Source of the DNA: an uncultured Akkermansia sp.
Lineage (GTDB): Bacteria; Verrucomicrobiota; Verrucomicrobiia; Verrucomicrobiales; Akkermansiaceae
NCBI GenBank assembly: GCA_900548895.1
Contig: URLZ01000018.1
Span: 1 to 42,586, forward strand
DNA: 42,586 nucleotides
Reading direction: 5' to 3'
Below are positions 1,029 to 15,404 of this stretch, one piece after another; the stretch's first letter is position 1; each line of letters opens with the position of its first letter. The position numbers and the translations under genes are program-made. The notes beneath the pieces are model-generated. The model was not told where the DNA came from and did no database searches. It saw only the letters and a program-made list of their open reading frames with translations.

Positions 1029-2612
1029 ATGGCAGACCGTACACAGACTGATCCGGTTCGGATGGAAAAAATTGTCAGCCTCTGCAAGCGCAGAGGGTTT
1101 ATCTTTCAGGCTGCGGAGATTTACGGCGGCCTCAACGGGTGCTGGGATTACGGCCCCCTCGGCGCGGAGCTGAAGCGCAATGTGAAGGATTACTGGTGGC
1201 GCGTGTTCGTGCAGGAGCGCCCCGATATTGTGGGGATGGACGGTGCGATTCTGACGCACAATTCGGTGCTGGTGGCTTCCGGTCACGTGAGCGGCTTCAC
1301 GGATCCGCTCTGCGATTGCCTGCTGAGCAAGGAGCGCCTGCGCGCTGATCAGATTCCGCCGCAGAGCGGTGTGGCTTTCTGGTGGAGCGGTGCGGCCCGC
1401 AAGGACGGCAGCTGGAGCACGAAGAAGGAGTTTTCGATGCTGGTGCCCTCCGATTCGGAGAAGGACGCCAAGACGGCGCGCAAGGGGGCTCTTCAGTATT
1501 ACAGCCAGATGTGCGGCCACGGCGCCCAGCCCGGCGATGTGGAGCTGCTCGATGAGCGCACGGAGGCGGTGATGGACAGTGTGCGCTACAACCCGGCGAA
1601 CGGTTCGCTGGTGACGGAGGCTCGCTCGTTCAACCTGATGTTCCGCACGACGATTGGTGCGGCATCGGATGAAAATGACCCGAGCAGCATCGGCTGGCTG
1701 CGCCCGGAGACGGCGCAGAGCATTTTCTGCCAGTACAAAAACATTCTCGATTCGTCGCGCATGAAGCTGCCCTTCGGCATTGCCCAGATCGGCAAGTCCT
1801 TCCGCAATGAGATCAATCCGCGCAACTTCACCTTCCGCTCGCGCGAGTTCGAGCAGATGGAGATTGAGTATTTCTGCCGTGCGGAGGATGGCTTGCGCCT
1901 GACGGATGAGTGGCTGGAGTCCTGCCTCTGCTTCTACGAGAATATCGGCATTCCGCGCGACAAGATTCACATCCTCGATGTGCCGGACGGCGAGCGCGCC
2001 TTCTACTCGAAGAAGACTTACGATCTGGAGTACGCCTTCCCCTTCGGCGTGCAGGAGCTTCAGGGGATCGCCTATCGCACGGATTACGACCTGACCCGCC
2101 ATCAGGAGGGCTCGGGCAAGCCGATGGAGTATTTCGATGAGGCGACGCGCGAGAAGTTCATTCCGCACGTGGTGGAGCCCTCGGCCGGCTGCGACCGCAC
2201 GGTGCTGGCGGTGATTTGCGAGGCCTACGACGAGGAGGAGCTCGGCAAGGACGGCAAGAGTGATGTGCGCACGGTGATGCACTTCCACCCGCGCATGGCG
2301 CCGATCAAGGCGGCGGTGTTCCCCCTGCTCAAGAAAAATGAGCAGCAGGTGCGCATCGCTCACGAGATTGAGCAGGAGCTGCGCCCCTACATGAATGTCT
2401 TTTATGATGAGGGCGGTGCCGTCGGTCGCCGCTATCGCCGCCAAGATGAGATCGGAACGCCGTTCTGCATCACGGTGGACTTCGAGACGCTCGGCGAGGG
2501 CGAGGATGCTTCGCTGAAGGATACGGTGACGATTCGCCACCGCGATTCCATGGAGCAGGAGCGTGTGGCGATCAAGGATTTGCTGCACTGGCTGCTCAAG
2601 CGCATTCGCTGA
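1029..2612 (+). CDS. glyS: Glycyl-tRNA synthetase, single-chain alpha2 type
   Basis: Class II aminoacyl-tRNA synthetase that charges tRNA-Gly, 527 residues. Visible family motifs are WDYGPLG near residue 40, the motif 2 region FRNEINPRNFTFRSREFEQME (about 255-275), the RPETAQ motif before it, and motif 3 SAGCDRTVLAVICEAYDEE. The C-terminal anticodon-binding domain begins around RMAPIKAAVFPLL. It is somewhat longer than the usual ~460 residues. The segment after SGFTDPL, which in many bacterial homologues carries CxxC and CPxCG zinc-type pairs, is here a longer insert with only scattered cysteines. This is the homodimeric archaeal/eukaryote-like form, not glyQ/glyS alpha2beta2. The start is set by the promoter 9 nt upstream. 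A strong terminator follows, so the gene is probably monocistronic. Confidence 0.95.
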   Translation: MADRTQTDPVRMEKIVSLCKRRGFIFQAAEIYGGLNGCWDYGPLGAELKRNVKDYWWRVFVQERPDIVGMDGAILTHNSVLVASGHVSGFTDPLCDCLLSKERLRADQIPPQSGVAFWWSGAARKDGSWSTKKEFSMLVPSDSEKDAKTARKGALQYYSQMCGHGAQPGDVELLDERTEAVMDSVRYNPANGSLVTEARSFNLMFRTTIGAASDENDPSSIGWLRPETAQSIFCQYKNILDSSRMKLPFGIAQIGKSFRNEINPRNFTFRSREFEQMEIEYFCRAEDGLRLTDEWLESCLCFYENIGIPRDKIHILDVPDGERAFYSKKTYDLEYAFPFGVQELQGIAYRTDYDLTRHQEGSGKPMEYFDEATREKFIPHVVEPSAGCDRTVLAVICEAYDEEELGKDGKSDVRTVMHFHPRMAPIKAAVFPLLKKNEQQVRIAHEIEQELRPYMNVFYDEGGAVGRRYRRQDEIGTPFCITVDFETLGEGEDASLKDTVTIRHRDSMEQERVAIKDLLHWLLKRIR

Positions 2613-2670
2613 GGCCTCTCGTTGCTGACGGTGGTCGGCTGTCGGGTTGGCCGCCGGGAAACGGTTTTTC

Positions 2671-2706
2671 AAGCCGCTCTGCACGCTGGTGCAGGGCGGC
2701 TTTTTT
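2671..2706 (+). terminator. Intrinsic terminator after glyS
   Basis: A 14-bp stem with one G.U pair (2671-2684 with 2689-2702), loop GCTG, and a run of six T at 2701-2706. It separates glyS from the phage-like cassette. Confidence 0.85.
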
Positions 2707-2790
2707 GTGCGGCGGATGGGGGTGGCAGCAGCGGTTGAGGCGGCTTTTCTGCCGAGGGGCGGGCAGGTGAGGCGGTGGAGGGGAGCTTGG

Positions 2791-2820
2791 TTGACCGCGG
2801 GGGCTCACCTCGGGCATGAT
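2791..2820 (+). promoter_or_regulatory. Possible promoter of the phage-like cassette
   Basis: TTGACC (2791-2796), 18 bp, CATGAT (2815-2820). The -10 matches four of six consensus positions. The ATG at 2828 lies 7 nt downstream, the same arrangement as at the host genes in this window. If this is right, the cassette is expressed from a host-type vegetative promoter. Confidence 0.4.
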
Positions 2821-2827
2821 GGCTCGC

Positions 2828-4072
2828 ATGCCGATACGTATGCGAGAGTGGGGCATGCTGCGAGCCCCGGAAAACAACACCCGAGTGCCGGTGGGCGGCT
2901 TGTCCGGCTGGGCTCAGGTGGCGTCGCAGCTCGGGACGGGGATCCGCGATTTGGCGGAGACGGGTACTCAGATGGCCGAGGAGCGCCGCGAGGTGCAGAA
3001 GGTGGCCGATCAGGCAAAGCTGGCCGCCCGCTTGCAGGAGGTGAATGATGAGGCTCAGCAGCAGCTCCGGGATGAGCAGCCGCGCGACTGGGCCTACGCC
3101 TGGCGGCAGGCGAGTGCTCCGGGGATTGCCGAGGCGGTCTCGGAGCTGCCTGAGGAGCAGCGCGCGGCGGGACGGGCGATGGCTGATTGGCTGAGTGCGC
3201 GCGCTTCGCTCGAGGCCCAGCGCGATCACGAGCTTTCACGCATTGAGGATTCGAGGCGCAGCTGGCAGCAGCGCCTCGATGAGGCCGTGGCCTCCGGCGA
3301 TGAGCAGAAGGCCGGGCAGTGGCTTGAGGCGGGGCGGCGCGTGTTCGTCCCGGAGGCGGAGATGGAGCAGCGCGGGGCCGAGGTGGCCAGCCGCTGCTGT
3401 TTGTCGCGCTGGCAACAGCGCTTGGCGGAGTCGCCGGCGCGCGCGCTGGGCGATTTGGCGGAGGCGGCGCCGGAGGCATGGCCCGGCGCGGAGACTGACC
3501 GCCTTCGCTTGCAGGAGCAGGCGGTGCAGACGCGCAAGGGGATGCGCCGCGAGCTGGCGCAGGGGCTCGCCGATGATCTGCGCCGAGGACAGCGACGCGA
3601 TGCGGATCGCCTGCAGGAGATGCAGCGCGCCGGCCTGATCAGTGCGGAGCAGCTGGCCGAGGCCCGCAAGCCTGTGGTGGCAGCCGGGCCGGCGACGCTT
3701 TCGGCTTGGATGCGCCGCGTGGATGAGTGCCCCGACGATGAGGAGGCGCGTACGGAGCTGAGCCTCAGCATCGAGACCTCTCCCTTGGAGGCGAGCCGCC
3801 GCCGCGAGCTGCTGGAGCGTTTGAACGATGGGGCCGCGCTGAGTGCGGCGGATCGCTCTTGCCTGAGCAGGAGCCTTTATGATTGGTATGGCCGCGGCTG
3901 TTTCGGCTGCGCGGCCGATGTGCAGTCGCAGCGCACGTATTTGCGCCTGCAGCGCGAGGGCTTCAGCCTGCTGCGCCGTGAGGGCAGTGAGGCGGCTGCG
4001 GAATGGCTGGAGAAGCAGCGAGAGAGCGCCGGGCGCTGGGTTTGTTTTGAATTTCAACAGAATTGGGTATGA
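2828..4072 (+). CDS. Phage DNA-ejection / internal virion-like coiled-coil protein
   Basis: A 414-residue protein of mostly charged, Gln/Arg/Glu/Ala-rich helices. The N-terminus (MPIRMREWGM, then RVPVGGLSGWAQVASQLGTG near residues 19-38 and DLAETGTQMAEERREVQ) follows the pattern of podovirus internal virion or ejection proteins: a short basic start, a Gly-rich patch, then a long coiled coil. A repeated helical motif with QKAGQWLEAGRRVF and ARALGDLAEAAPEA fits that family's helical hairpins. This is pattern recognition, not a database hit. An in-frame ATG at 2816 is possible; I chose 2828 because of its spacing to the putative -10. The stop overlaps the next start as ATGA (4069-4072), so it is coupled to the giant gene. 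Alternative: an unrelated coiled-coil scaffold protein. Confidence 0.6.
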   Translation: MPIRMREWGMLRAPENNTRVPVGGLSGWAQVASQLGTGIRDLAETGTQMAEERREVQKVADQAKLAARLQEVNDEAQQQLRDEQPRDWAYAWRQASAPGIAEAVSELPEEQRAAGRAMADWLSARASLEAQRDHELSRIEDSRRSWQQRLDEAVASGDEQKAGQWLEAGRRVFVPEAEMEQRGAEVASRCCLSRWQQRLAESPARALGDLAEAAPEAWPGAETDRLRLQEQAVQTRKGMRRELAQGLADDLRRGQRRDADRLQEMQRAGLISAEQLAEARKPVVAAGPATLSAWMRRVDECPDDEEARTELSLSIETSPLEASRRRELLERLNDGAALSAADRSCLSRSLYDWYGRGCFGCAADVQSQRTYLRLQREGFSLLRREGSEAAAEWLEKQRESAGRWVCFEFQQNWV

Positions 4073-7000
4073 AACCGTATCGTGATGACAGGTCGGAGGC
4101 GGCGGCAACGGAGCCGTCGTCGGGTCAGACGGGCCGCGCGGCTGATGCTGTGGCGGCGAAGGAGAAGACGCGCCGCCGTGCGCCGGCGGACGCAGGGGCA
4201 GCGCCTTCGTCGCGCCGCGCTTCCGAGGTGAGTGCCCCGGCGGCGGAGGCCATGCTGACGGATCCGTCGCTGGCAGCGGATCTCGCGACGGCTTCGGCTT
4301 CGGTGCCGGCGGAACCGGTTCCCGAGTTTGCCGAGCGGCCTGCTCCGGTGGCTCGGGTGAGGGGCGGCGGTGCCGGGGCGGCGTCCGCTTTCTCTCCGGC
4401 CGGAGAGAGTGTTGCCGCAGGCTCGGCGGCGGCTGAGGCGGTGAACCGCGAGGTGTCGCGCGGCGGCGAGGCGTCGGGAGAGCCCGGCCCCGCAGCGGCG
4501 TCACGGGCGGAGGCCTCCCGCTCGTCTGTGTCTCGGGCGTCGGCGTCGGGCTCTGCCTCCGAGGGGGTGTCCGCATCGTCGGAGCTGCCGGCGTCGACGG
4601 CAACGGCTGATTCCGGGGATGCGGCCTCTTTCGGTGCCGCCGGAGTCGCGGGCGCAGGAGCTGAAGGAGGCTCAGGCGTCGCGGGAGAAGCTGCGATGCC
4701 CGGTGCCGTAGCGTCGGGCGCTGCCGTCGGGATGCCGGCGGGAGCGCTCGCGGCGGCGCCGACCGGGGCTTCCGGAGCTCCTGGGCAGTCGGGCGGCTTT
4801 GCCCCGACCGCAGCTGCGGTCGGGCTTCCGGGTGCTGCCGGGAGGGAGGCGTTCGGTGCGTCTCCGCAGGCTTTTTCCGCGGGCGGGGGCGGTGTTGCGG
4901 CGCCGGACTTTGTCCCCGGGGCTGTGCCGGGGTCTGTTCCCGGTGCTGGCGTTCCCGGTGCGGGCGTTCCCGGTGCGGGCGTTCCCGGTGCGGGCGTTCC
5001 CGGTGCGGGCGTTCCCGGTGCGGGCGGGCTGCTTCAGGGGGCTGTGCCTCCGGAGGCGGCTGCTCCGTTGTCGGGCAACGGTGAGCGTTCGCTGCGCCAT
5101 TCGGGCTTGTTTTTGCGCTCGGAGCAGAGTGATCGCTACTGGAAGCGCGTTCTCGTGGGGGATTTGCGCCGCGTGCCGGAAGAGGTGCGGCGCCGCGCGG
5201 GGGCTGATGAGCCAGAGCTCGATGAGGAGGAGCGCCGCTATCGCTTGGCCGGCGCGATCAATCGCTCGTGGGTGTCGGATCACGGTGAGTATTCGCGCGA
5301 GTACATCACGGAGAACTGGGGCCGCATGCGCGCCGAGTTGGCGCGGCGTCTCGGGGTCGTCGATGATGAGGAGGAGCTCTTCCGCGCGATTTCGCTGCGC
5401 TCGGATGAGGATCCTCTGCGCCGCATGGCTCGCGACTTGTTCGAGGGCGCCTATGCCGCCGGGCTGGAGGGTCAGGAAGCTTTCGACCCGGGGGCGTCGC
5501 TTCAGCAGTTGCAGGCGCCGCAGCAGCAGGCGGCGCGACTGATCGTTTTTGAGGGGTTGACGGCGGGGCAGGCGCAGCGCGAGCGCTATTTGCCGCTGGC
5601 GCAGCGCGTTGCCGACGGCCTCAGGGCCTACGATGCTGCGGAGAGTCAGCTTTTCTCTGCGCCGGATGTGGTGGCTTCTCTGCCGGCGCTGAGCGAGGCG
5701 GCCGGGCAGCTCGCGGAGATGCCGCAGCAGGAGCGCTACCTCGTGTATCACCTCGCGGCTGGCTTGCGCCCGACCGGTCAGGCGGGGCAGGCATCGGGAG
5801 CTGAGGGCACGGAGGATGAGGGACTGGGTTCCGCGATGCTGCGCGCTGTGCGGCGCGGATCGGTCAACCTCGGTGTCGGCGCTGCGCAGGCGCTGGGGCA
5901 GTTCTCGTCCTCACTGGTGCGCCATCTGGGCGAGAATCTGGATGATTCGCTGGGTACGGACATGGCGGGGGGCGCTGAGGTGCTGGATCGTCACTTGGTG
6001 GTGCACGACGAGCTGCGCCGTCTGGCGCAGCACGAGGTGTATCCGCTGGGGCAGGCGGCGGGTGCGTCGCGCGTGGAGCAGTATCTGATCGATGCGGCGC
6101 AGGCGACGCCGTCTTCGGTGCTGGCCTTCTGCTCGGGTGCCGGGTTCGCGGGGCTGACGCTCAGCGGTGTCGGCGAGGCCGTGGCCGAGGCCCGCAGTCG
6201 CGCCCCGATGGGCGACCGCGATTTGCAGCTGGCTGCCGGGGTGATTGCCGGCACGATTCAGGCCGGGATCTATGCGGGCCTCGGCAAGTTGGGTTCGCAG
6301 GCGCTGGAGCAGTCGGTCGCGTCGCTAGTGCGCGCGGGTGGTTCGGGGGTGAAGGGGTATTCCGCTGCGGCCCTTCGTTCTCTCAGCCATCTGACGGGGG
6401 AGTCGGTTCGCCTGCTGCTGGCGGGCAAGGCGGCGATGGCGACGGATCTCGCCACGCAGGAGCTGGCGGCTCGCGTGGACGGCACGGCTTCGAACATTGA
6501 CTGGAGGGCCTTCGGTGACAATCTCACGGACATTGAGGCGAATATGCGCGAATCGGCGATGCTGCTGCCCTATCTGCTCATTGCGTCGGGGCGCGTGGCG
6601 CTGCGCCATTTTCGCAGCCGAGAGCAGGTGCTGGGCGATGGCTCGGCGCTGTTGGACTGGGGACTTTCGGAGAAGGAGAGGGAGGCGGTGATGCGCGAGA
6701 CGGATTTGGATGTGCAGGGCGAGCGGCTGCGCGAGGCGCTGCGCAAGAGCCCGCGATGGTCCTCTCCCGATTTCCCGGAGGAGGCGATGCGCAGTCTGCT
6801 GCTGCTCAACACGGATTATTTCCGAGGTTTTTCGGAGCCGAAGGTGGTGCGCGATTTCCTGCGCCTGCCGGCGGAGAGCTCGGGGGTGAAGCGCGAGGAG
6901 TTTCCCGCTCTCCGCGAGGGGGACAAGGATGCTGAGGATCGGGTGCTCAAGCGCCCGTGGGCGCGCCCCGAGCTGCTTCAGCGTTCGGAGCGCCTGAGTC

Positions 7001-10000
7001 GTGTTTTGCCCATTTGGGATGCCTGGTGGAGTAAGTCGCACCTGCTCAGCTCGTCTGATACGAGCCCGCGCAGTCAGAACCGCCGCATCCGCGAGGAGAC
7101 CTTCGGCAGGCGTCTGCGCTATGCGTTTGAGCTGAGGAATCCGTCGGCTGTTATGCAGGATCGTCTGGAGATGAGCGGAGCCTATGCGCCCCACGCTGAG
7201 GAGGAGCGCCGCCTCGTGATTGCGGACCGCTTCGCCGAGATTCAGGATTTGTCGTATCAGTTCCTGCTCAATTCATACACGCTCGATTCGATGCTGAGAA
7301 CGCCTGAGGCAATCTCGTCGCTGGTGAAGCGCTCGGAGCGCATGCGTCAGTCTCTTCTGGGCGGTGTGGCTCAGATGGTGCTGGGGTTGGCATCGGGCAA
7401 GTCTCGGCAGGAGGTCTTGAAGGACTTTGCCGGCAGCTTCAACTATTACTACAAGCGTCGCAGCTTTCAGATCAGCGCTCCGCAGTGGATGCGCGAGGCA
7501 AAAGCAAATCACTTGCGGCATTTGGATCGCTTGCTGGAGCCGGCGAATCGCGGGGTCTTGGATGATGTGCCCAACGAGGTGCTTCAGGCGGTGCGCGTGC
7601 TTGCCGGCTTGGAGGCCTGCGGGACGGCTCTCTTTGATCTGCTGCCGCTCAGCCCGGGCTTCATGACGGCCCTCTCGCGGGGTATGACGCCGATGCAGGC
7701 CTACGGGCACTTGCTCGGCCGAGAGTTGCAACTGGACGAGAAACAGAGGCTCGCTCTGCCTGAAGACGCGCGATTCGATGAAGCCTCGGCTCAGGATATT
7801 TCGGAGTATACGGAACGCAACCGAGAGCTCTATGAGCGTTATCGCGGTCTGACGGGCCGCGGCCTGGAGTCCTCGGAGGGCGAGGACGGGCAGACGTACT
7901 GGCGCGTGCTGCGCCCCAACGGGCGCTACACGCACTGGCACGCTCAACCGGAGCAGGCGATCAACGAGCTGGCGGCCCAGTCTTCGCTGTCCTTCATGTT
8001 GTACAACACATCGCCGCGCCGCTTGTTGCAGGAGGGGGCCGTGCGCCGTGCGCTGGATCTGAGCAGCTGGCTGCCCGTGCGGCCGCATGAGTATTCCGCC
8101 TATGATCGGCTGTGCAGTATTGCGCTCGATGAGCTGAGCCGCTTCTGGCAGGGCTCGGCGCTGCGCATGCAGCCCGGCATGGAGGTGAAGCGCCTGCGCT
8201 ACCGCTTCCGCATCGGGGCTCGCAATCTGGGCATCTCGCCGATTCTCAAGCCTCGCGGGGCTCCCGGCAGCGGCTACGAGGTCGATGCCTTCTCGGTGGC
8301 GACGCCGCTGGGTATGATTCAGGCGCGCCTGCACGCCTTCTGGCGACGCCAGCTGGGTAGTGAGGCGGTGGACGCGCAGCAGGCCGGGCGTCTGCTCGTC
8401 GCATCCGGCGTGCTGCGCGAGGATCAGGTGCAGCGCATCCTGCGGGCGGCGCGCCCGAGCATGCGGGAGCGGCGACAAGGTGCTCTGTCGCCCGATAAGG
8501 TCGAGAGGCGCAATGCGCGGCTGGCGCGGCATCTGGCTAAACTCAGTCTGCACTACATGCTCTCGCAGCTTGATACGATGACGCTGCCGGAGCCGGTGCG
8601 CGAGTGGCTGGCGCTGTCGCCTTTCTGCACGCTGCCGCTGGAGGTGCGTCGCAATATGAAGAGCGTCAAAAAGGAGACGAGTGTGCCCATCTCGAACGGC
8701 GCACCGCTGCTGTTGCGCTGGGCGAATCGCCGCAGTATGCTGCGCATGCAGCGCTACGCGGGGGCGGCAGACAAGGTTCGGTCCTTCCTCGCGGCGCCTT
8801 CCGTCTTTGCCGATCGCCTGCCGAAGCTCCTCAAGCGCTCGCTGGGGATGGACCCGACCGCCAACTTGGAGCAGGCTTGGTGTTTTCACCTCAGCGGCGC
8901 ACAGACGCAGTACAATACGGATCAAAGCTGTCTCAATCTGCTCACGGAGCCGGTGGAGGCGTGGCGCCTTCTGGCTCCGGAACAGAAGGCGGAGATGCTC
9001 GAGGATATCGAGCTTCCCGCCGAGCGCGGCTTTGATGCAACGCTGCCTCCGACGGGCGCTGCGGGAAGTGTGAGCGCTCTCGATGCTGCGGGGACATCCG
9101 CCGCCGACGAGTCCGGGGCAGGCGCTGCTGCTTGGGAACAGAGGCTTCGCGAGCTGGATGCGGTGCTGCGGGAGCATCCCGAGCTACACCGCTTCTCCTT
9201 GTTGCCCGATCGCAGCTCCGTCGTGGTTGAACTGCAGCCGATCGAGTATGAGGAGCCAAGCCGTCAGGAGGTTTTGCCGGCTTGGCAGAGCGGGAGTATC
9301 GGCGGTGCGTCGGTGCCCTTCCGTATGCTGAACCGGACGGTTCCGCGTGAGGATTACCGTGTCGGGAATGTCGCCGCGCTGCCGGCCGATTTGGCCGCGG
9401 ATGCCCGGACGTTGCCCGCCCTGCGCACGCTCGATGTGCTGCGCAGTTATGTGGTCTCGCTTCCCTTTGCAACGGAGCAGGGCATCTGGTGGAAGGGGAA
9501 ACGCTACGGCGGCTTCGACGGTGAGATGCCGACGGAGATCTACGAGAACTGGAAGGATCGCCCGGTGCTGCAAGGCCTCTTGGAGATGTTTGCTCGCATC
9601 GATGACGTTCTGGCGGCCTCGGGCGAGGAGAGGATGGACGTCTGCGGCGTGCAGCTGCTGCCGATGGGCGAGAGGCCCGACACGCGGCCTTGGTCTCTGG
9701 TGTCGCTCTACCGCGACCCGGCCCATCCCGAGATGCTCTATCGCCTCATGCCCGGTGAGCCGGATTCACCGGGCGTGCCGATGCGGCGCCCCTACATCGT
9801 CAACAGTTACCACGGCGCCTACCTGCAAAAGAAGCATCGAAAGCACGTGTATGAGATGGACGACTTCTGCTACGGCATGGTGCCCTTGAATCTCTTCCGC
9901 CCCTTTGAGCCCCGTAACTACAACGAGAAGCACATGGAGGCCTGGAAGCGCGAGGCCGTCGAGTACACGATTGACGGCATCCTGGCGCGCGCCGAGAGCA

Positions 10001-10692
10001 TGGAGAATCAAAGCGAGCCTGATGCGTTGCTGGATGAGGATCTCGAGTCGGATGCTCCGATCGATGAGGAGAGCGAGCCGGTAGCTCCGATGGATGAGCA
10101 GGGTGAGTCCTTCAGCAGTTCGGCGGCGGCTCTGGGCTGGCGAGAGCTGCTCATGCGCCTTTGTGAGGATACGGCGCTGAGTCATTCGCTCATCGATCTG
10201 GAGCCTCAGCAGATGACGCCCGGACAGGCTCTGGCGGTCTCGCTGGCCCGTGAGATTATCCTCACGCACAGCGGTAGCGATGCCGAGGCGCCGGAGCGGC
10301 TGCGGCAGCTGGCCCGCCGCATTCGCCTCAACCCGTCGCTGCGGCGCCAGCTCGCGACGGCGCTCTTCGAGAGCTTGGACCGCCAGCGGCTGGGGCTCGG
10401 CTCGCGCCGCCCGGTCGCGCGTCTGCACGCCATCTCGGTGACGGAGACGGAGCCTGACGTGGCTCCCGAGGCGGCACCTGATGGGACACCCGAGGTGACA
10501 TCAGGCTCGGAGGAGGCGTCCCGCGAGGAGCCCAGCGAGATGTCCGGAGAGAGCCGTCAAGATCCGACCGGGGAGATGTCACGCGAGATGTCCTCGGAGA
10601 CGTCCTCGGAGACGTCGGGCAGGCGGGATGAGGCTGCACCGAACGCTGCGCGGGCATCGGCTGAAGAGTTGCAGGGAGGTGAAAGTTCATGA
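4069..10692 (+). CDS. Giant 2207-residue virion/polyvalent-like protein of unknown function
   Basis: I recognise no enzymatic domain. Layout: residues 1-340 are Ala/Gly/Ser/Pro low complexity and include six VPGAG units (290-319). From about 345 there is a helical, Arg/Glu/Leu-rich body reaching about 1980. It contains a Gly/Ala-rich hydrophobic patch at 682-745 and another around 831-846 that could insert into a membrane. An acidic tail (about 1985-2030) precedes a final folded stretch, and the last 80 residues are Ser/Glu/Met-rich with short repeats. Large size, a disordered N-terminus, membrane-active patches and a position between an ejection-like protein and a terminase suggest an internal virion or 'polyvalent' protein that enters the cell with DNA. 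This is inference. ATGA overlaps at both ends place it in one operon. The frame is intact over 6.6 kb, with codon use like its neighbours, so it is not an obvious pseudogene. Confidence 0.7.
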   Translation: MKPYRDDRSEAAATEPSSGQTGRAADAVAAKEKTRRRAPADAGAAPSSRRASEVSAPAAEAMLTDPSLAADLATASASVPAEPVPEFAERPAPVARVRGGGAGAASAFSPAGESVAAGSAAAEAVNREVSRGGEASGEPGPAAASRAEASRSSVSRASASGSASEGVSASSELPASTATADSGDAASFGAAGVAGAGAEGGSGVAGEAAMPGAVASGAAVGMPAGALAAAPTGASGAPGQSGGFAPTAAAVGLPGAAGREAFGASPQAFSAGGGGVAAPDFVPGAVPGSVPGAGVPGAGVPGAGVPGAGVPGAGVPGAGGLLQGAVPPEAAAPLSGNGERSLRHSGLFLRSEQSDRYWKRVLVGDLRRVPEEVRRRAGADEPELDEEERRYRLAGAINRSWVSDHGEYSREYITENWGRMRAELARRLGVVDDEEELFRAISLRSDEDPLRRMARDLFEGAYAAGLEGQEAFDPGASLQQLQAPQQQAARLIVFEGLTAGQAQRERYLPLAQRVADGLRAYDAAESQLFSAPDVVASLPALSEAAGQLAEMPQQERYLVYHLAAGLRPTGQAGQASGAEGTEDEGLGSAMLRAVRRGSVNLGVGAAQALGQFSSSLVRHLGENLDDSLGTDMAGGAEVLDRHLVVHDELRRLAQHEVYPLGQAAGASRVEQYLIDAAQATPSSVLAFCSGAGFAGLTLSGVGEAVAEARSRAPMGDRDLQLAAGVIAGTIQAGIYAGLGKLGSQALEQSVASLVRAGGSGVKGYSAAALRSLSHLTGESVRLLLAGKAAMATDLATQELAARVDGTASNIDWRAFGDNLTDIEANMRESAMLLPYLLIASGRVALRHFRSREQVLGDGSALLDWGLSEKEREAVMRETDLDVQGERLREALRKSPRWSSPDFPEEAMRSLLLLNTDYFRGFSEPKVVRDFLRLPAESSGVKREEFPALREGDKDAEDRVLKRPWARPELLQRSERLSRVLPIWDAWWSKSHLLSSSDTSPRSQNRRIREETFGRRLRYAFELRNPSAVMQDRLEMSGAYAPHAEEERRLVIADRFAEIQDLSYQFLLNSYTLDSMLRTPEAISSLVKRSERMRQSLLGGVAQMVLGLASGKSRQEVLKDFAGSFNYYYKRRSFQISAPQWMREAKANHLRHLDRLLEPANRGVLDDVPNEVLQAVRVLAGLEACGTALFDLLPLSPGFMTALSRGMTPMQAYGHLLGRELQLDEKQRLALPEDARFDEASAQDISEYTERNRELYERYRGLTGRGLESSEGEDGQTYWRVLRPNGRYTHWHAQPEQAINELAAQSSLSFMLYNTSPRRLLQEGAVRRALDLSSWLPVRPHEYSAYDRLCSIALDELSRFWQGSALRMQPGMEVKRLRYRFRIGARNLGISPILKPRGAPGSGYEVDAFSVATPLGMIQARLHAFWRRQLGSEAVDAQQAGRLLVASGVLREDQVQRILRAARPSMRERRQGALSPDKVERRNARLARHLAKLSLHYMLSQLDTMTLPEPVREWLALSPFCTLPLEVRRNMKSVKKETSVPISNGAPLLLRWANRRSMLRMQRYAGAADKVRSFLAAPSVFADRLPKLLKRSLGMDPTANLEQAWCFHLSGAQTQYNTDQSCLNLLTEPVEAWRLLAPEQKAEMLEDIELPAERGFDATLPPTGAAGSVSALDAAGTSAADESGAGAAAWEQRLRELDAVLREHPELHRFSLLPDRSSVVVELQPIEYEEPSRQEVLPAWQSGSIGGASVPFRMLNRTVPREDYRVGNVAALPADLAADARTLPALRTLDVLRSYVVSLPFATEQGIWWKGKRYGGFDGEMPTEIYENWKDRPVLQGLLEMFARIDDVLAASGEERMDVCGVQLLPMGERPDTRPWSLVSLYRDPAHPEMLYRLMPGEPDSPGVPMRRPYIVNSYHGAYLQKKHRKHVYEMDDFCYGMVPLNLFRPFEPRNYNEKHMEAWKREAVEYTIDGILARAESMENQSEPDALLDEDLESDAPIDEESEPVAPMDEQGESFSSSAAALGWRELLMRLCEDTALSHSLIDLEPQQMTPGQALAVSLAREIILTHSGSDAEAPERLRQLARRIRLNPSLRRQLATALFESLDRQRLGLGSRRPVARLHAISVTETEPDVAPEAAPDGTPEVTSGSEEASREEPSEMSGESRQDPTGEMSREMSSETSSETSGRRDEAAPNAARASAEELQGGESS
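4936..5025 (+). repeat. 15-bp minisatellite encoding VPGAG x6 (elastin-like)
   Basis: Six tandem copies of GTTCCCGGTGCGGGC. The first (4936-4950) differs by one base and the other five are identical. The unit is in frame and encodes VPGAG, an instance of the elastin-like pentapeptide VPGXG. Near identity at DNA level implies recent expansion, and copy-number change keeps the frame. Confidence 0.95.
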
Positions 10693-12287
10693 ATGATTCC
10701 CCTCCTAGCCTGCGCGGGCGCCTCGATGACCCCCTCTGGCGCCTGCAGAATCTCTACTGGATTGAGGACAAGGCCGGGCGCATGCGGCGCTTTCGCCTCA
10801 ACGAGGCTCAGCGACGCCTGCACCGAGGACTCTGGTTCCGCAACGCCGTGCTCAAGGCGCGCCAGTTGGGGATCTCGACCTACGTGGCGCTGCTGATGCT
10901 CGATCGCTGCCTCTTCACGCCGAACTTTCATGCGGGCATTATCGACAAAACGCTGCCGGATGCCGAGCAGAAGCTGGAGAAGTTGCGCTTCGCCTGGGAG
11001 CACCTCGACTATGAGCCTCCTCAAGCGGAGGCGGGCGAGCGTGCGCTCGCCTGCCTCGGTGCCATGATCAAGCAGCGCAGCGGGCAGATGAAATCGGGCA
11101 GTTGCCGCCCGCTCAGCGATGCGCGCACGCGCCTGGCCTTCGCCAACGGCAGCGACGTCCGCCTTGGCACCACGCTGCGCGGTGGCACGCTGCAAATGCT
11201 GCACGTCTCGGAGCTCGCGCACGTCTCGGTGCACGCTCCCTGGCGCGCTCGAGAGATCCGAACCGGCGCCATCAACACGGTGGCGGCTGACGGTACGATC
11301 ATTCTTGAGAGCACGCATGAGGGCGGGCGCTACGGGGTGAACTACGAGATGATGCAGCAGGCGATGGAGAACAGCGCGCGCGGCGAGCTCTTGCCGCTCG
11401 ACTTCCGCTTCTTTTTCTTCAGCTGGTTTGACAATCCCGAGTACGCGCTGCCGGGCCGCGCCCACTGGAGTGACAGCCTGGCCGACTACTTCGAGAAGAT
11501 CGAGCAGGCGGGCACGACGCTGAGCACGGCGCAGAAGCTCTGGTACTCGCGCATGGAGCGGACGATGGGCGCCGCCATGCGGCAGGAGTATCCCTCGACG
11601 CCCGAGGAGGCCTTCAGCACGGGCAATGACGGCGCCATCTACGGCACTCAGATAGCGCTGCTGCGCGAGCAGGGGCGCATCGGGGCCGACTTCAGCTTCC
11701 GCTCCGATGAACCGCTGTACACGGCCTGGGACCTCGGTCTGAGCGACTACACGGCCATCTGGCTCGTTCAGCAATACGGCGGGCAGGTGTACTGGCTGGA
11801 TCACTACGCGGCCAACCAGCTGCCGGTGGAGCATTATGCGGGCAAAATTCACGAGTGGGAGCAGGCTTTCGGCCCCGTGGCCGCCCACTTTCTGCCGCAC
11901 GATGCCGCTCACCGAGATCCGCACGGGCAGTCCTACGTCGAGAGTCTCGCCGCGCTGGGCATCGAGGCGGTGCGCGTCGTGCCGCGCACGCCCGACATCT
12001 GGAGGGGCATCAACGCCCTGCGCGGGCTGCTGTCGCGCAGTTGGTTTCACCGCCGCACCCTGCTGTCGCGCGTCAACCTGTGCGGGGAGCAGGAGCCCTC
12101 GGGCCTCAGCTGTCTGGAGCGCTACCGCAGCGCCCCGGCGGGGGCTTCGGGCTCACTTCGCGATGCTCCCCTGCACGACGCCTGCTCGCACAGCGCCGAT
12201 GCTGCGCGCATGTTTGCCGAGGCGCTCAGCCACGGCATGGTATCGCCGGTGCAGCTGAGGCGCTCCGCCCGCCGAGCGCTGATGTGA
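10689..12287 (+). CDS. terL: Phage terminase large subunit (ATPase-nuclease)
   Basis: A 532-residue DNA-packaging motor. The N-terminal ATPase has the terminase-style Walker A KARQLGIST (residues 56-64), a Walker B-region segment LHVSELAHV, and the coupling motif ESTHEGG preceded by AREIRTGAINTV. The C-terminal RNase H-like nuclease shows AWDLGLSDYTAIW (D348, D353), an HDAAHRD segment with D405, and HSADAARM with D504, so the acidic residues look intact. It starts at an ATG overlapping the previous stop (ATGA) behind a strong GGGAGGTG ribosome binding site, in contrast to the SD-less host genes around it. No small terminase, portal or capsid gene is adjacent, and here terL comes last, whereas phage maps usually put it before the virion genes. 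Confidence 0.88.
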   Translation: MNDSPPSLRGRLDDPLWRLQNLYWIEDKAGRMRRFRLNEAQRRLHRGLWFRNAVLKARQLGISTYVALLMLDRCLFTPNFHAGIIDKTLPDAEQKLEKLRFAWEHLDYEPPQAEAGERALACLGAMIKQRSGQMKSGSCRPLSDARTRLAFANGSDVRLGTTLRGGTLQMLHVSELAHVSVHAPWRAREIRTGAINTVAADGTIILESTHEGGRYGVNYEMMQQAMENSARGELLPLDFRFFFFSWFDNPEYALPGRAHWSDSLADYFEKIEQAGTTLSTAQKLWYSRMERTMGAAMRQEYPSTPEEAFSTGNDGAIYGTQIALLREQGRIGADFSFRSDEPLYTAWDLGLSDYTAIWLVQQYGGQVYWLDHYAANQLPVEHYAGKIHEWEQAFGPVAAHFLPHDAAHRDPHGQSYVESLAALGIEAVRVVPRTPDIWRGINALRGLLSRSWFHRRTLLSRVNLCGEQEPSGLSCLERYRSAPAGASGSLRDAPLHDACSHSADAARMFAEALSHGMVSPVQLRRSARRALM

Positions 12288-12288
12288 G

Positions 12289-12309
12289 CCGGACTTTTCG
12301 CGAGTCCGG
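12289..12309 (+). terminator. Hairpin after terL, weak terminator candidate
   Basis: A 7-bp perfect stem CCGGACT/AGTCCGG with a 7-nt loop, 2 nt after the terL stop. There is no T tract, so it may be a 3' end stabiliser or a factor-dependent end. Confidence 0.35.
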
Positions 12310-12352
12310 AGGCGCTCATCCGTCTACGGTTCAGAGCACCGCTGCGTTCGGC

Positions 12353-12395
12353 AAAAAAAAGGCAGCACCCCGCGTCGCGACAGGCGGGGTGCTGC
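12353..12395 (-). terminator. Intrinsic terminator of the TIGR04073-like gene
   Basis: A perfect 12-bp stem (12362-12373 with 12384-12395), 10-nt loop, followed on the minus strand by eight T (12360-12353). It lies 30 nt after the minus-strand gene's stop and also fences that gene off from the convergent cassette. Confidence 0.88.
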
Positions 12396-12425
12396 ACTTG
12401 AAAATATCCGGCGCGGGGCTCGGGA

Positions 12426-12857
12426 TCAGTCCGCCTGCGTGCGGCTGTAGTTGTACTTGCTCTGGAAGCCGAGCTCCTCGGGGAATTCGGAGAAGCCGGA
12501 CCAGACGTTGTACTCCTTGAGCCCGCTGCGGCCGCAGCTGCCCTGATAGGGCGGGCGGTAGGTGCACTTGTAGGTCGGAGCCCAGAAGGTCACCAGCTCG
12601 TAGAAGCCGTAGCCGATGCGCGTGAAGGTGCGTGCAATGCCGTCCACAATACCGACGGAGAAGCCCGCGTAGTCACCCTCCGCGGAGTTCCAGCGGATCA
12701 TCGTCACGGGGATTTCTTCAACGGCATAGAGGATGTTGCCGATGGCTCGGCCGAGCTTGCGGGTCGCCGTGTACTCGGAGGCGGGAGGCGCCTGAATGTC
12801 GGCGTAAACCGAGCCCGCTACGGCAAAGAGGAGTGTTGTAAGGAGTAAGCGCTTCAT
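12426..12857 (-). CDS. TIGR04073-like exosortase system-associated secreted protein
   Basis: 143 residues with a clear signal peptide (MKRLLLTTLLFAVAGSVYA, cleavage after residue 19). The mature protein has the arrangement I associate with TIGR04073: RKLGRAIGNILYAVEEIP, then a Gly-rich stretch GFSVGIVDGIARTFTRIG, then GFYELVTFWAP. That family is found mainly in Verrucomicrobiota/Planctomycetota genomes with exosortase (PEP-CTERM) sorting, and its function is unknown. Two cysteines near residues 98 and 108 could form a disulfide. A weak GGTG lies a few bases before the ATG and a possible TAATAT -10 is 18 nt upstream. The gene is convergent with terL and has its own terminator. The family call rests on remembered motifs. 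Confidence 0.65.
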   Translation of the reverse strand: MKRLLLTTLLFAVAGSVYADIQAPPASEYTATRKLGRAIGNILYAVEEIPVTMIRWNSAEGDYAGFSVGIVDGIARTFTRIGYGFYELVTFWAPTYKCTYRPPYQGSCGRSGLKEYNVWSGFSEFPEELGFQSKYNYSRTQAD

Positions 12858-12923
12858 GACATCACCAGTCTTACCATATTAGCCTCGTTCTGGCAAGTGA
12901 AAAAGTCAATGCCCGAGCGACTT

Positions 12924-14180
12924 TTACGCTTCCCCGAGCAGGGACTCGGGCAGCGGCGTGTGAATTTCCTCATCCGTGAGGTAACAGCCCGGGTCAGAGC
13001 CGTACCAGTTGCCGTTGGCGAAGGCCGCGCGGGTGCGGAAGCCGCCGCCGCAGAGGCCGAAGTGCACGCAGCCGGCGCAGCGCCCGCTGAGGAGCTTCTG
13101 GCGCTCGGCCGGGTCCTCGCTGCCTCGCAGCTCGCGCAGCGTGGCAGCCGAAGGAGCGAGCGATGCTTCCCAGACCTCGGAGAACTTCTGCGTCTTGACA
13201 TTGCCGAGGGTGACGCCCTGCCAGAACTGGTCGGGGTGGATGTTGCCCTGAGTGTCGATGTTGGCGATGCCTCGGCCGGAGCTGTTGGCGCCGCCGCCGT
13301 TCCAGCGCAGCAGGCGCAGCGTTTCCGCCGCCAGCGGCGAGCCCTCGCGGAGCTGGCGCAGCAGCAGGTAGATGCCGTCGGCGGGCTGCGTCACCGTGAG
13401 CAGCTCGCGCGGCTGCCCCTCGGCCTGCCACTTCTCCGTGCGAGCGATGAGCATGTCGATGGCCGCGCGCGCCTCCTCGGGCTTCAGGCTCGCGACATCC
13501 ACGCCGCGGCCCGTCGGCACGAGGTGGTAGAAGCAGACGCGGCGAATATTGTGCTCCTCGATGAAGTCGAGGATCTCACTCATGCTTCGGACGTTGTTGC
13601 GAGTGAGCGTCAGGCGAAGCCCCGTCTTCTGCCCCACTTCCTCACAGAGGCGGAAGCCGCGGATGGCTCCATCAAAGGCTCCGGGAACCCCGCGGAACTG
13701 ATCGTGAACGGCGCCGATGCCGTCCAGAGAAATGCCGACGTAGGCCACCCCCAGCTCCTTGAAGAGCGCGGCCATCTCGGGCGTGATGCGCGTGCCGTTC
13801 GTCGAGATGGTGACCTTGAGCCCGCGCTCCGTGGCGCGGCGCAGCAGGTCGGGCAGGCGCGGGTGCAGCAGGGGCTCGCCGCCCGAGAGCAGCAGGGCGC
13901 TGACGCGGTAGTCGGCCAGATCGTCAATCACGTTGCAGCACTGCTCCCAGTTCAGCTCGCCGGGGTAAATCTCGGCGTGCGAGTCAGCATAGCAGTGGAT
14001 GCAGCGCAGGTTGCAGGTGCGGGTAATGTTCCAGACGACGATGGGCTTGCGGGTGCGTGAGGACGTCGGCGTGCAGGCGGCCGTGCTGGCGTGGGGGTCG
14101 CGGGAACCGTGTCCGCTGCCGTAGCGCAGGTGGTCTGCCGGCTGTTCCAGACCGGTCCAGAGTCGGGTGATATTGATCAT
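12924..14180 (-). CDS. ahbC: AhbC-type radical SAM enzyme (12,18-didecarboxysiroheme deacetylase)
   Basis: 418 residues. In the alternative, siroheme-dependent haem pathway, AhbC removes the two acetate side chains of 12,18-didecarboxysiroheme to give Fe-coproporphyrin III. Evidence: the N-terminus MINITRLWTGLEQPADHLRYG has the family's short leader pattern. The radical SAM cluster motif is CNLRCIHC (C56, C60, C63), the GGEPL SAM motif follows, and the C-terminal cysteine-rich SPASM-like region contains CAGCVHFGLCGGG and a later Cys. The frame is open 25 codons further upstream, but family alignment favours the ATG at 14180. The leader just before it is pyrimidine-rich with no SD. It lies 126 nt downstream of ahbD on the same strand, so co-transcription is likely. 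ahbAB and siroheme genes are not in this window. Confidence 0.82.
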   Translation of the reverse strand: MINITRLWTGLEQPADHLRYGSGHGSRDPHASTAACTPTSSRTRKPIVVWNITRTCNLRCIHCYADSHAEIYPGELNWEQCCNVIDDLADYRVSALLLSGGEPLLHPRLPDLLRRATERGLKVTISTNGTRITPEMAALFKELGVAYVGISLDGIGAVHDQFRGVPGAFDGAIRGFRLCEEVGQKTGLRLTLTRNNVRSMSEILDFIEEHNIRRVCFYHLVPTGRGVDVASLKPEEARAAIDMLIARTEKWQAEGQPRELLTVTQPADGIYLLLRQLREGSPLAAETLRLLRWNGGGANSSGRGIANIDTQGNIHPDQFWQGVTLGNVKTQKFSEVWEASLAPSAATLRELRGSEDPAERQKLLSGRCAGCVHFGLCGGGFRTRAAFANGNWYGSDPGCYLTDEEIHTPLPESLLGEA

Positions 14181-14306
14181 GGTGAAGGGGAAAGTCAGTG
14201 CGTTGTGTTGCTGAGAAAAGTCGGGTGCCCGGTGGGGAAAAACGGAGAACTGCAAAGATGCGGGCTCTGCGGATTTTCGGGGGGGGCTGCGTCAGGTCGA
14301 TGCGCT

Positions 14307-15404
14307 TCAGGAGGTCGCGCAGGCTGTCGAACTGCCTTCGGCGCCGTCGCGGCGCAGCGCAGCCGGGATGTAGCTGCAGAGCGGCTCGCAGGCCATCATG
14401 TCACCGGTCAGGCCGTAGGCGCGCGCTCGCGAGCCGCCGCAGACGTGGCGGTACTCGCAGGCCCCGCACTTGCCGCCCAGCGCATCGTCGTCGCGCAGAC
14501 GCACGAAGATGGGGTGCGTGCGGTAGACGGTCGCCAGATCATCGGTGCGCACATTGCCGGCCGTCAGCGGCAAGAAGCCGCTGGGCTGAATCTCGCCGAT
14601 GTGCGAGATGAACAGCACGCCCTTGCCGTCGCGCGTCTTGGCGAGGTGGCGGGGCGGCACGCCGGTGCGGCGCGCGGCAGCGAGCAGGGTGCGGCGGTAG
14701 TGGTGCCCCTCCGTCGTCTTGACGGCGAAGGGCAGCTCGTGTCGCAGGCTCTCCAAGCGATTCCAGAGAGCTTCAAGCTCGTCGGCCGTGGGCAGATCAT
14801 CAGCCGTGGCGCGCCCCGTGGGCACAAGGACGAACACACTCCAGACATCCGGGTGAATCTGCTTCATCAGCTCGATGAAATCGTCCATCTGATCCAGCGT
14901 CGAGTGCGCCACTGTCGTATTGATCTGCAGCTCAATGCCGGCCTCGCGGGCCATGCGCGCGGCCTCGAGCGTGCGCTCAAAGGTGTGCGGCACCCCGCGG
15001 AAGGCGTCGTGGCGCTCGCGTGTGGCGCCGTCGAGGCTGAGGCTGAGGCTCTGCACGCCCGCGCGGCGCAGGCGCGCAAAATCCGTCTTGAGCAGGCGCG
15101 GCGTCGCCGCCGGGCTGAGGGCCACGCGCTGGCCCTGCGAGGCCGCCCGCTCGATGATATCGTAGATATCGCGACGCATCATGGGGTCGCCGCCCGTCAG
15201 CACGAGCATCGGCGGCGCCAGTTTCACAATCTCATCCACCAGCCGCAGTGCCTCCTCAGCGCTCAGCTCAGCCGGATTCGGTCTGGGCTGCGCAACGGCG
15301 CGGCAGTGGCGGCAGGCGAGGGCGCAGGCGCGCGTCAGTTCCCAGAAGAGAATGAAGGGGCGCTCTGCGTAGTCGATGGAGGGGAAGGAGGGGTGCGTAG
15401 CCAC
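14307..15404 (-). CDS. ahbD: AhbD-type radical SAM haem synthase (Fe-coproporphyrin decarboxylase)
   Basis: 365 residues. AhbD oxidatively decarboxylates the two propionates of Fe-coproporphyrin III to vinyls, making haem b. The N-terminus RPFILFWELTRACALACRHC carries the CxxxCxxC cluster ligands (C27, C31, C34), followed by LTGGDPMMR as the SAM-binding GGD variant. The C-terminal auxiliary cluster region has CGACEYRHVCGGSRARAYG and a final Cys in EPLC, all typical of AhbD. The start is GTG at 15404, 9 nt after a good promoter, so a leaderless GTG message is predicted. Related maturases (tungsten-cofactor or PqqE-like) share this architecture, but adjacency to an AhbC-like enzyme makes the haem role the best reading. 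Confidence 0.83.
   Translation of the reverse strand: MATHPSFPSIDYAERPFILFWELTRACALACRHCRAVAQPRPNPAELSAEEALRLVDEIVKLAPPMLVLTGGDPMMRRDIYDIIERAASQGQRVALSPAATPRLLKTDFARLRRAGVQSLSLSLDGATRERHDAFRGVPHTFERTLEAARMAREAGIELQINTTVAHSTLDQMDDFIELMKQIHPDVWSVFVLVPTGRATADDLPTADELEALWNRLESLRHELPFAVKTTEGHHYRRTLLAAARRTGVPPRHLAKTRDGKGVLFISHIGEIQPSGFLPLTAGNVRTDDLATVYRTHPIFVRLRDDDALGGKCGACEYRHVCGGSRARAYGLTGDMMACEPLCSYIPAALRRDGAEGSSTACATS

Follow-up and report, generated by a model that had tools for sequence, protein, structure and literature searches.

A terminase and ejection-like gene cassette of Akkermansia as a probable part of a dispersed podovirus-type gene transfer agent

Results

The three-gene cassette and its proteins

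The stretch of DNA analyzed here, 42,586 nucleotides of contig URLZ01000018.1 from an uncultured Akkermansia sp. (hereafter the window), carries a cassette of three genes, A, B, and C (the trio), the last of which encodes the large subunit of a phage terminase (TerL). The trio probably supplies the packaging motor and the ejection proteins of a domesticated, podovirus-like particle of the T7 type. Such a particle is best described as a gene transfer agent (GTA), the other parts of which would act in trans. As a preliminary description of the window had reported, the three frames are uninterrupted and joined by ATGA overlaps, at 4069-4072 and 10689-10692. An alternative in-frame ATG upstream at 2816 would extend gene A to 418 amino acids (aa), but the consensus N-terminus of its homologues (MAIRMKEWGML) supports the start at 2828 and with it the length of 414 aa given earlier. 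All feature positions are listed in Table 1.

The earlier naming of gene C as TerL was borne out by matches to PHROG 2472 (4.5e-41), 26724 (7e-41), and 2 (2e-24) and to Pfam Terminase_6C (2.2e-5). Its active site had been described as apparently complete: LKARQLGIST (residues 55-64), E175, D348, D405, and D504, which we take to be the motor and nuclease residues of TerL, are invariant across 23 aligned sequences. In the protein search, the best 120 of 3065 TerL relatives were 54-99% identical. The nearest TerLs outside the trio type were those of Akkermansia prophages with up to 50% identity, and the best TerL of a named phage reached 36%. Among the matches listed, TerLs of viral contigs reached 39% and those of plasmids 36% at best (best 5 of 16 records). 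Of four named relatives, three belong to Akkermansia. The fourth, with 72% identity (P0111), is labelled as coming from the nematode Cylicocyclus nassatus and presumably represents bacterial contamination of that assembly.

Proteins A and B had no Pfam or NCBIfam match at an expect value (E) of 1 or better, and in PHROGs B had no match and A a single one at 0.86. Both were compared with the proteins of podovirus-like prophages of Akkermansia. The prophage of genome G044 carries, in this order, TerL, portal, scaffold-like protein, capsid, adaptor, nozzle, and the gp14-, gp15-, and gp16-position proteins. Its adaptor matched PHROG 394 (5.6e-9) and its nozzle PHROG 376 (9e-100), while its gp15- and gp16-position proteins, the latter partial, had no PHROG match. 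A profile of A built from 47 sequences aligned with the gp15-position proteins of two prophages (hhalign probability 83%, E 9e-6, 311 columns) and with those of four other prophages (79.8%, 1.4e-5, 180 columns). B aligned with the gp16-position giants of G044 and G005 (99.2%, 3.6e-19, 514 columns), both of which are partial, being cut by the ends of the fetched stretches, and had no hhalign match to the giants of four other prophages. Crossed comparisons, such as B against gp15-position proteins, stayed below 1% probability. Invariant residues among 29 aligned A homologues include W96, R147, W150, and G161 (numbered from the 2816 start). For B, 30 relatives were found at 30-100% identity, and none of 50,697 phage records matched it at E 0.01.

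The AlphaFold2 model of A showed an all-helical fold (pLDDT 87.4), which had 11 matches at E 0.001 or better in a viral structure library (best 3e-6, probability 1.00), none of them tellingly named. Weaker matches were to Podoviridae proteins and included the "Internal virion protein B" of Aeromonas phage PS at E 0.03, and against the PDB A had 0 sequence matches and a best fold match at E 0.24. The description of A as ejection-like is moderately supported by these profile and structure comparisons. We take A to be gp15-like and B to be gp16-like, the T7-position names following from gene order. The T7 counterparts gp14, gp15, and gp16 serve DNA translocation.

Conservation and selection

The scan of species genomes gave 95 TerL relatives, 80 of which were kept and condensed to 76 loci. 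The trio type accounts for 49 of them (L001-L049 without L048, and L059), L048 and L050 are prophage-type, and a 3.2-kb stub of the same type as the trio (L061) was left uncounted. The order A-B-C occurred in 45 of the 49 trio-type loci, and in the other four (L001, L013, L019, L026) the contig starts inside the cassette. Gene A of L045 was missed by tblastn and a second search, yet falls in the A cluster. The genes flanking the trio vary by lineage, and each trio genome holds a single TerL of the trio type.

Frames were intact for A in 47 out of 47 cases (at least 403 aa), for B in 49 out of 50 (at least 1601 aa), and for C in 53 out of 53 (prophage L048 included), with the single short B frame, in L026, cut by the contig edge. 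The ratio of nonsynonymous to synonymous substitution rates (dN/dS) was calculated for 20 pairs with our own Nei-Gojobori script, several dS values lying above 1.5 and thus near saturation. It ranged over 0.026-0.166 for TerL, 0.097-0.494 for A (one undefined), and 0.112-0.428 for B (two undefined). TerL is under purifying selection. B is fast evolving yet also under purifying selection.

Particle genes elsewhere in the genomes of relatives

That no phage genes accompany the trio, as reported earlier, is true of its vicinity but not of the genomes of relatives. The search for portal, capsid, and tail genes elsewhere was run in 33 trio genomes, namely 32 of the 42 TerL-positive genomes and G006, chosen for having the trio TerL, and such genes were found in 32 to 33 of them. 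The capsid occurred in all 33 at 61-100% identity to that of genome G118 and the nozzle likewise in all 33, while the adaptor and the gp14-like gene occurred in 32 each (all at E 1e-3 or better), with G158 being the gp14-like miss. Stops flagged in four of the capsid rows lie at or adjoining the query end, as judged from the matched ranges. The best capsid of a viral contig, among the matches listed, was 40% identical.

The portal of the G044 prophage, used as a query, matched 37 of 38 genomes. One portal orthologue per genome was found in 32 of the 33 trio genomes (37-41% identity, 306-340 bits), not beside the trio; the absence of both the portal and the neighbouring adaptor from G180 fits an assembly gap. 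GTA-type portals in 14 fetched neighbourhoods were 60-100% identical to the G118 portal. In 12 of the 14, the next genes are one of 93 aa and a scaffold-like gene, and in 11 a divergent adaptor precedes the portal, the misses being due to stretches that ended at the portal. The capsid, the nozzle, and the gp14-like gene each stand alone, while portal, 93-aa gene, and scaffold-like gene form one cassette with the adaptor divergent beside it.

In G118, a single contig of 2,664,102 bases of which 2.26 Mb were examined, the particle genes occupy five places that are 0.1-1.3 Mb apart (Table 1). The Akkermansia muciniphila loci L042, L043, and L044, in G004, G001, and G005, behave like G118. Across six single-contig genomes, TerL, capsid, nozzle, and portal lie at least 80 kb from one another, whereas portal and adaptor are 1.2-2.1 kb apart; the gp14-like gene of G149 is found 1.9 kb from TerL. 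Capsid and TerL share a contig in some metagenome-assembled genomes, at a distance of about 8 kb in G184 and about 34 kb in G069.

Two further observations were made in G118. The predicted start of the gp14-like gene (1,892,977-1,893,513) overlaps a terminator-like hairpin with a T-run, so that translation probably begins at a later methionine (MGFDPAS...). A separate prophage-like remnant at 1,628,768-1,643,622 matches prophage proteins of G044 and others and has no TerL.

Table 1. Positions of the cassette, its flanking features, and the dispersed particle genes of G118.
Feature	Sequence	Position	Strand	Description
Gene A	Window	2828..4072	+	414 aa, all-helical, internal-virion-protein-like, gp15 position; opens the cassette
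Gene B	Window	4069..10692	+	2207-aa giant, gp16 position; homologue of the gp16-position giants in two Akkermansia prophages
Gene C (TerL)	Window	10689..12287	+	532 aa; motor and nuclease residues invariant
LKARQLGIST motif of TerL, Walker-A position, residues 55-64	Window	10851..10880	+	10/10 residues invariant, 23 sequences
15-bp tandem repeat, 6.1 copies	Window	4936..5026	+	Encodes a Gly/Ala/Val/Pro repeat within the low-complexity N-terminal region of B
Hairpin 3' of TerL	Window	12289..12309	+	Without T-run; read directly from sequence
glyS	Window	1029-2612		Upstream of the cassette
Intrinsic terminator of glyS	Window	2671..2702	+	Upstream cassette boundary; 14-pair stem and T-run
TIGR04073 gene	Window	12426-12857	-	Downstream of the cassette; family match 1.2e-24
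Intrinsic terminator of the TIGR04073 gene	Window	12353..12395	-	Downstream boundary; hairpin, then minus-strand T-run; read directly from sequence
Trio	G118	462,976-471,123		
Major capsid	G118	1,787,044		PHROG major head protein 2e-55
gp14-like gene	G118	1,892,980		PHROG internal virion protein 7e-4
Nozzle	G118	starts near 2,207,815		PHROG tail protein 1.6e-89 (N-terminal 562 aa)
Portal cassette and adaptor	G118	2,502,978-2,506,924		Portal: PHROG "head-tail adaptor" 2e-82; adaptor: PHROG "tail protein" 2e-41

Joint occurrence and inheritance

The Akkermansia clade, delimited by a full-length glyS at least 77% identical to that of the window, comprised 40 of 195 sampled genomes of the family. 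The trio TerL was found in 31 of these 40 and also in G172, whose glyS match was weak. In the nine clade genomes without it (G163, G083, G182, G178, G155, G105, G008, G133, and G097), neither a capsid nor a portal of the GTA type occurred (0 of 9 each), with partial capsid matches of 31% in G083 and G008 and portal matches of 36% in G008 and 31% in G083. G008, the only one of the nine included in the adaptor and gp14-like searches, gave a weak adaptor match and no gp14-like match. Set against the 33 of 33 capsids and 32 of 33 portals of the trio genomes, Fisher's test gave 2e-9 and 2e-8 with relatedness ignored, figures that overstate independence since the nine genomes may stem from few losses. 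TerL, capsid, and portal come and go together though unlinked.

No capsid of the GTA type was found in eight genomes of sister lineages. Across 288 genomes of the order, capsids at 61-100% identity appeared in 33 trio-clade rows, one of which (G359, 63%) is of unexamined TerL status. Second capsid copies were present in G053 (74%), G044 (71%), and G005 (63%), those of G044 and G005 inside prophages. A TerL fragment in G133 was considered as a decayed trio copy and rejected, as it is prophage-type (42-43%).

A total of 25 trio TerLs formed one clade (SH-aLRT 100) beside the Akkermansia prophage TerLs (85), and the A. muciniphila group separated from the others; the tree was built with a quick method and has long branches among prophages and phages. 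Between the host glyS and TerL trees of 22 genomes, 12 of 19 splits were common (one with a glyS support of 20) and the Mantel r was 0.903, with 0 of 2000 permutations as high. The glyS and B trees of 22 genomes had 11 of 19 splits in common (r 0.833). With glyS as the single gene behind the host tree, these 22 genomes point to mostly vertical inheritance and co-diversification with the host.

It is exceedingly improbable that the trio is an ordinary prophage remnant, that is, three leftover genes of an old phage. Related TerL, portal, capsid, and giant proteins do occur in Akkermansia prophages, and the gene order of the trio fits the prophage order if circularly permuted. However, A is intact in 47 of 47 frames and B in all but the one cut by a contig edge (49 of 50), the dN/dS of TerL is 0.03-0.17, and the single trio-type TerL of each genome is inherited vertically and absent jointly with the unlinked capsid and portal. 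On the grounds of intact frames, purifying selection, and joint presence and absence, the relic offered as one option by the preliminary description was rejected.

A second option of that description, a satellite in which the trio would divert packaging by a phage, whether resident or incoming, is disfavoured and appears highly unlikely. In principle, helper capsids could be redirected by TerL and ejection proteins alone, and a second TerL, of the prophage type, is present in 10 of 32 trio genomes, but in the remaining 22 there is no second TerL of this family to act as part of a helper. Capsid, portal, and tail genes dedicated to the set are present in the trio genomes, and TerL follows the host tree, unlike what is expected of a mobile, helper-dependent element; no integrase or replication gene was noticed beside the trio, though no search aimed at such genes was made.

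Related prophages and half-dispersed sets

The podovirus-like prophages of Akkermansia (G044, G005, G112, G144) resemble the trio set in their homologous TerL (40-50%), portal (about 40%), and capsid (34-71%, those checked), as well as in their homologous adaptor, nozzle, and gp14- to gp16-position proteins. They differ in that their genes are clustered and sporadic, with 0 to 3 extra TerLs per trio genome, whereas the GTA-type genes are dispersed and vertical, with one trio-type TerL per genome.

Three genomes of other Akkermansiaceae with sizes of 4.9-5.8 Mb (G042, G148, and G136; L168-L173) hold a TerL (42-43%), portal, capsid, adaptor, and gp14-like gene within about 105, 58, and 35 kb, respectively. 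The chromosomal surroundings of TerL are common to G042 and G148. Such sets could represent a related GTA at an intermediate stage of dispersal, or else old prophages.

Flanks of the cassette in the window

In the window, host genes enclose the trio, which does not form a contiguous prophage module of structural, replication, and integration genes, the structural genes of relatives lying elsewhere. No integrase or replication gene was noticed beside the trio, although no dedicated search for them was made. The flanking terminators described earlier were recovered in part: that of glyS stands, while that of the TIGR04073 gene is visible by eye but was missed by the strict terminator scan. The hairpin reported behind the cassette is likewise present but lacks a T-run. 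A possible host-like promoter had been placed in front of the cassette; the match at 2791-2820 is at chance level, with 2 matches in 2400-13000 against a shuffle mean of 1.1. Rfam matches and tRNAs in the window numbered 0 each.

The position between glyS and the TIGR04073 gene, which had been proposed as a test of synteny, is not general. Among the trio neighbourhoods compared, glyS adjoins the trio only in L036 and the TIGR04073 gene only in L001. The 2.0-2.3 kb beside glyS in eight trio-less genomes contained no trace of A, B, or C; as a check for an empty site this is a weak test, since glyS and the trio are neighbours only close to the lineage of the window itself. The TIGR04073 gene is adjoined on the minus strand (12924-15404) by two frames of 443 and 365 aa that look radical-SAM-like from a visual inspection of their cysteine motifs. 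The window starts with a run of 34 G (within 1-52), which may be an assembly artefact or a genuine homopolymer edge.

Discussion

A gene transfer agent with dispersed genes

Akkermansia, including A. muciniphila, probably has a functional podovirus-type GTA, with the genes for capsid, portal, nozzle, inner core, and motor placed apart on the chromosome. The GTA would be old enough to have co-diverged with most of the clade. While the interpretation given in the preliminary description is partly supported overall, its option of a domesticated module working in trans is strongly supported in relatives, as genes for capsid, portal, scaffold-like protein, adaptor, nozzle, and gp14-like protein lie elsewhere in trio genomes.

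The set would have originated from a clustered podovirus-like prophage that was domesticated in an ancestor of Akkermansia and whose genes were scattered under joint selection. Under some condition, a fraction of cells would express the set. Scaffold and capsid would form a head on the portal, and TerL would fill this head with host DNA, because a set of genes spaced 0.1-1.3 Mb from one another is too spread out to be packaged in one piece. The internal core of T7 is ejected through the tail to pass DNA across the envelope. In the same manner, the gp14-like protein, A, and B would assemble into an inner core that leaves by way of adaptor and nozzle and carries the DNA across the envelope of the recipient, and the delivered DNA would recombine in sister cells.

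GTAs are defined by six features: caudovirion-like particles built from caudoviricete-derived proteins, for which sequence similarity may serve as evidence; packaging of largely random host DNA; endogenization; a GTA genome that does not fit completely into the particles; mostly vertical inheritance; and delivery of the DNA to further cells (available text of PMC9662315). Three of the six, as given there, were found in the Akkermansia set. PHROG and Pfam matches indicate caudoviricete-derived proteins for TerL, capsid, portal, adaptor, nozzle, and the internal protein. Full endogenization, often at multiple loci, is seen in the five places of G118 and similarly in five other single-contig genomes, and the third feature is the mostly vertical inheritance described above. 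Judging from the spacing of its genes, the GTA genome would also not be fully packageable.

Several points weigh against a GTA. Particle formation, the packaging of host DNA, and delivery are what we infer from genes alone, and for delivery to other cells the evidence is the kept ejection-like proteins. The capsid and portal of the window's own genome are presumed from those of its relatives. The set is missing from nine of the 40 clade genomes and is hence dispensable. Genes for a small terminase, a receptor-binding fibre, lysis, or regulation were not identified. Beyond the close A. muciniphila group, the gp14-like gene is matched weakly (E 3e-26 to 8e-9), and the structural matches of A have low TM-scores of 0.26-0.41 on the query. 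Of G118, 0.4 Mb lie outside the examined part, and 112 kb of the rest read N. No promoter motif shared by its dispersed genes was found: no 9- to 12-mer is common to at least three of four upstream regions, and in a 20-mer test of six upstream regions 14 of 15 pairs remained at or below the maximum of 12 shuffles, with the gp14/nozzle pair at 16 against 14.

Four IMG/VR contigs (L421-L424) that carry the portal cassette at 97-100% identity to G118 also count against it. As phages carrying the set they were rejected: judged from 12.8-13.1 kb of each 35-40-kb record, they are collinear with the G118 chromosome over 4.6-4.8 kb, with other DNA adjoining, which is partly prophage-like in L421 and L424. 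The DNA beside the portal cassette is absent from that place in G118 and differs between the records, as if the spot attracts insertions. Such insertions would sweep the cassette into predicted viruses.

A capsid set exapted for another cargo (protein, RNA, or a structural role) instead of DNA transfer is very unlikely here. Capsids have been exapted for other cargo elsewhere, but a double-stranded DNA packaging motor with both active sites is kept in Akkermansia together with the ejection-like set. A killer particle of the PBSX or tailocin kind, which packs host DNA and kills related strains instead of transferring genes, is unlikely as well. The same genes would be conserved in it, and PBSX is a known GTA-like element that does not inject its DNA (available text of PMC12946183). 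However, the gp14-, gp15-, and gp16-position proteins are kept, A and B are under purifying selection, and the nuclease and motor residues of TerL, which a pure killer would not need, are invariant. That the ejection-like proteins have been retained speaks for delivery rather than killing.

An indirect pointer comes from purified particles of the mouse gut: among the contigs that showed transduction patterns, Verrucomicrobia had 3.5 times the contig abundance, with genus and pattern type not told in the available text of PMC7667829. If the proposed GTA is real, the exchange of host DNA in this mucin-degrading gut symbiont would be a trait controlled by the bacterium, and its extremely split architecture would be easily missed by prophage finders. 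The set offers a concrete and testable mechanism for gene exchange in the widely studied Akkermansia, with capsid, TerL, and portal as marker genes for virome and proteome data and the nine relatives without it as natural negative controls. It also suggests that joint selection on a phage particle can persist once its genes are spread across a chromosome.

Comparison with known systems

The GTA of Rhodobacter capsulatus (RcGTA, Rhodogtaviriformidae) comprises five loci with about 20 kb in all (available text of PMC9662315). It is like the Akkermansia set in that domesticated caudoviricete genes are inherited vertically and lie at several loci. While the main structural genes of RcGTA are kept in one cluster, capsid, portal, nozzle, and motor are all apart in Akkermansia, which differs further in its T7-type connector, tail-tubular, and internal-core-like proteins and in belonging to the Verrucomicrobiota. 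PBSX of Bacillus subtilis is a contiguous defective prophage and acts as a killer, unlike the proposed GTA, whereas the Akkermansia set is dispersed and includes ejection-like proteins. The two are alike in being phage-derived particles that pack host DNA, in the case of PBSX according to the available text of PMC7667829 and PMC12946183.

FpGTA of Faecalibacterium (PMC12946183, Nat Commun, January 2026, available text) also belongs to a gut commensal, has a predicted podovirus-like particle, and lies at separate loci. FpGTA differs in its phylum and in having two operons, the first of which holds a possible small terminase subunit (TerS), TerL, portal, scaffold, and capsid together. It was presented as the human gut microbiome's first such element and as the first of podovirus-like morphology; the available main text of PMC12946183 mentions neither "akkermans" nor "verruco". 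Our literature search, with subscription journals and preprints mostly outside it, found, among the titles listed, no GTA in Verrucomicrobiota, so that the Akkermansia set would be the first in this search. Its structural genes would also be more dispersed than those of the GTAs compared here.

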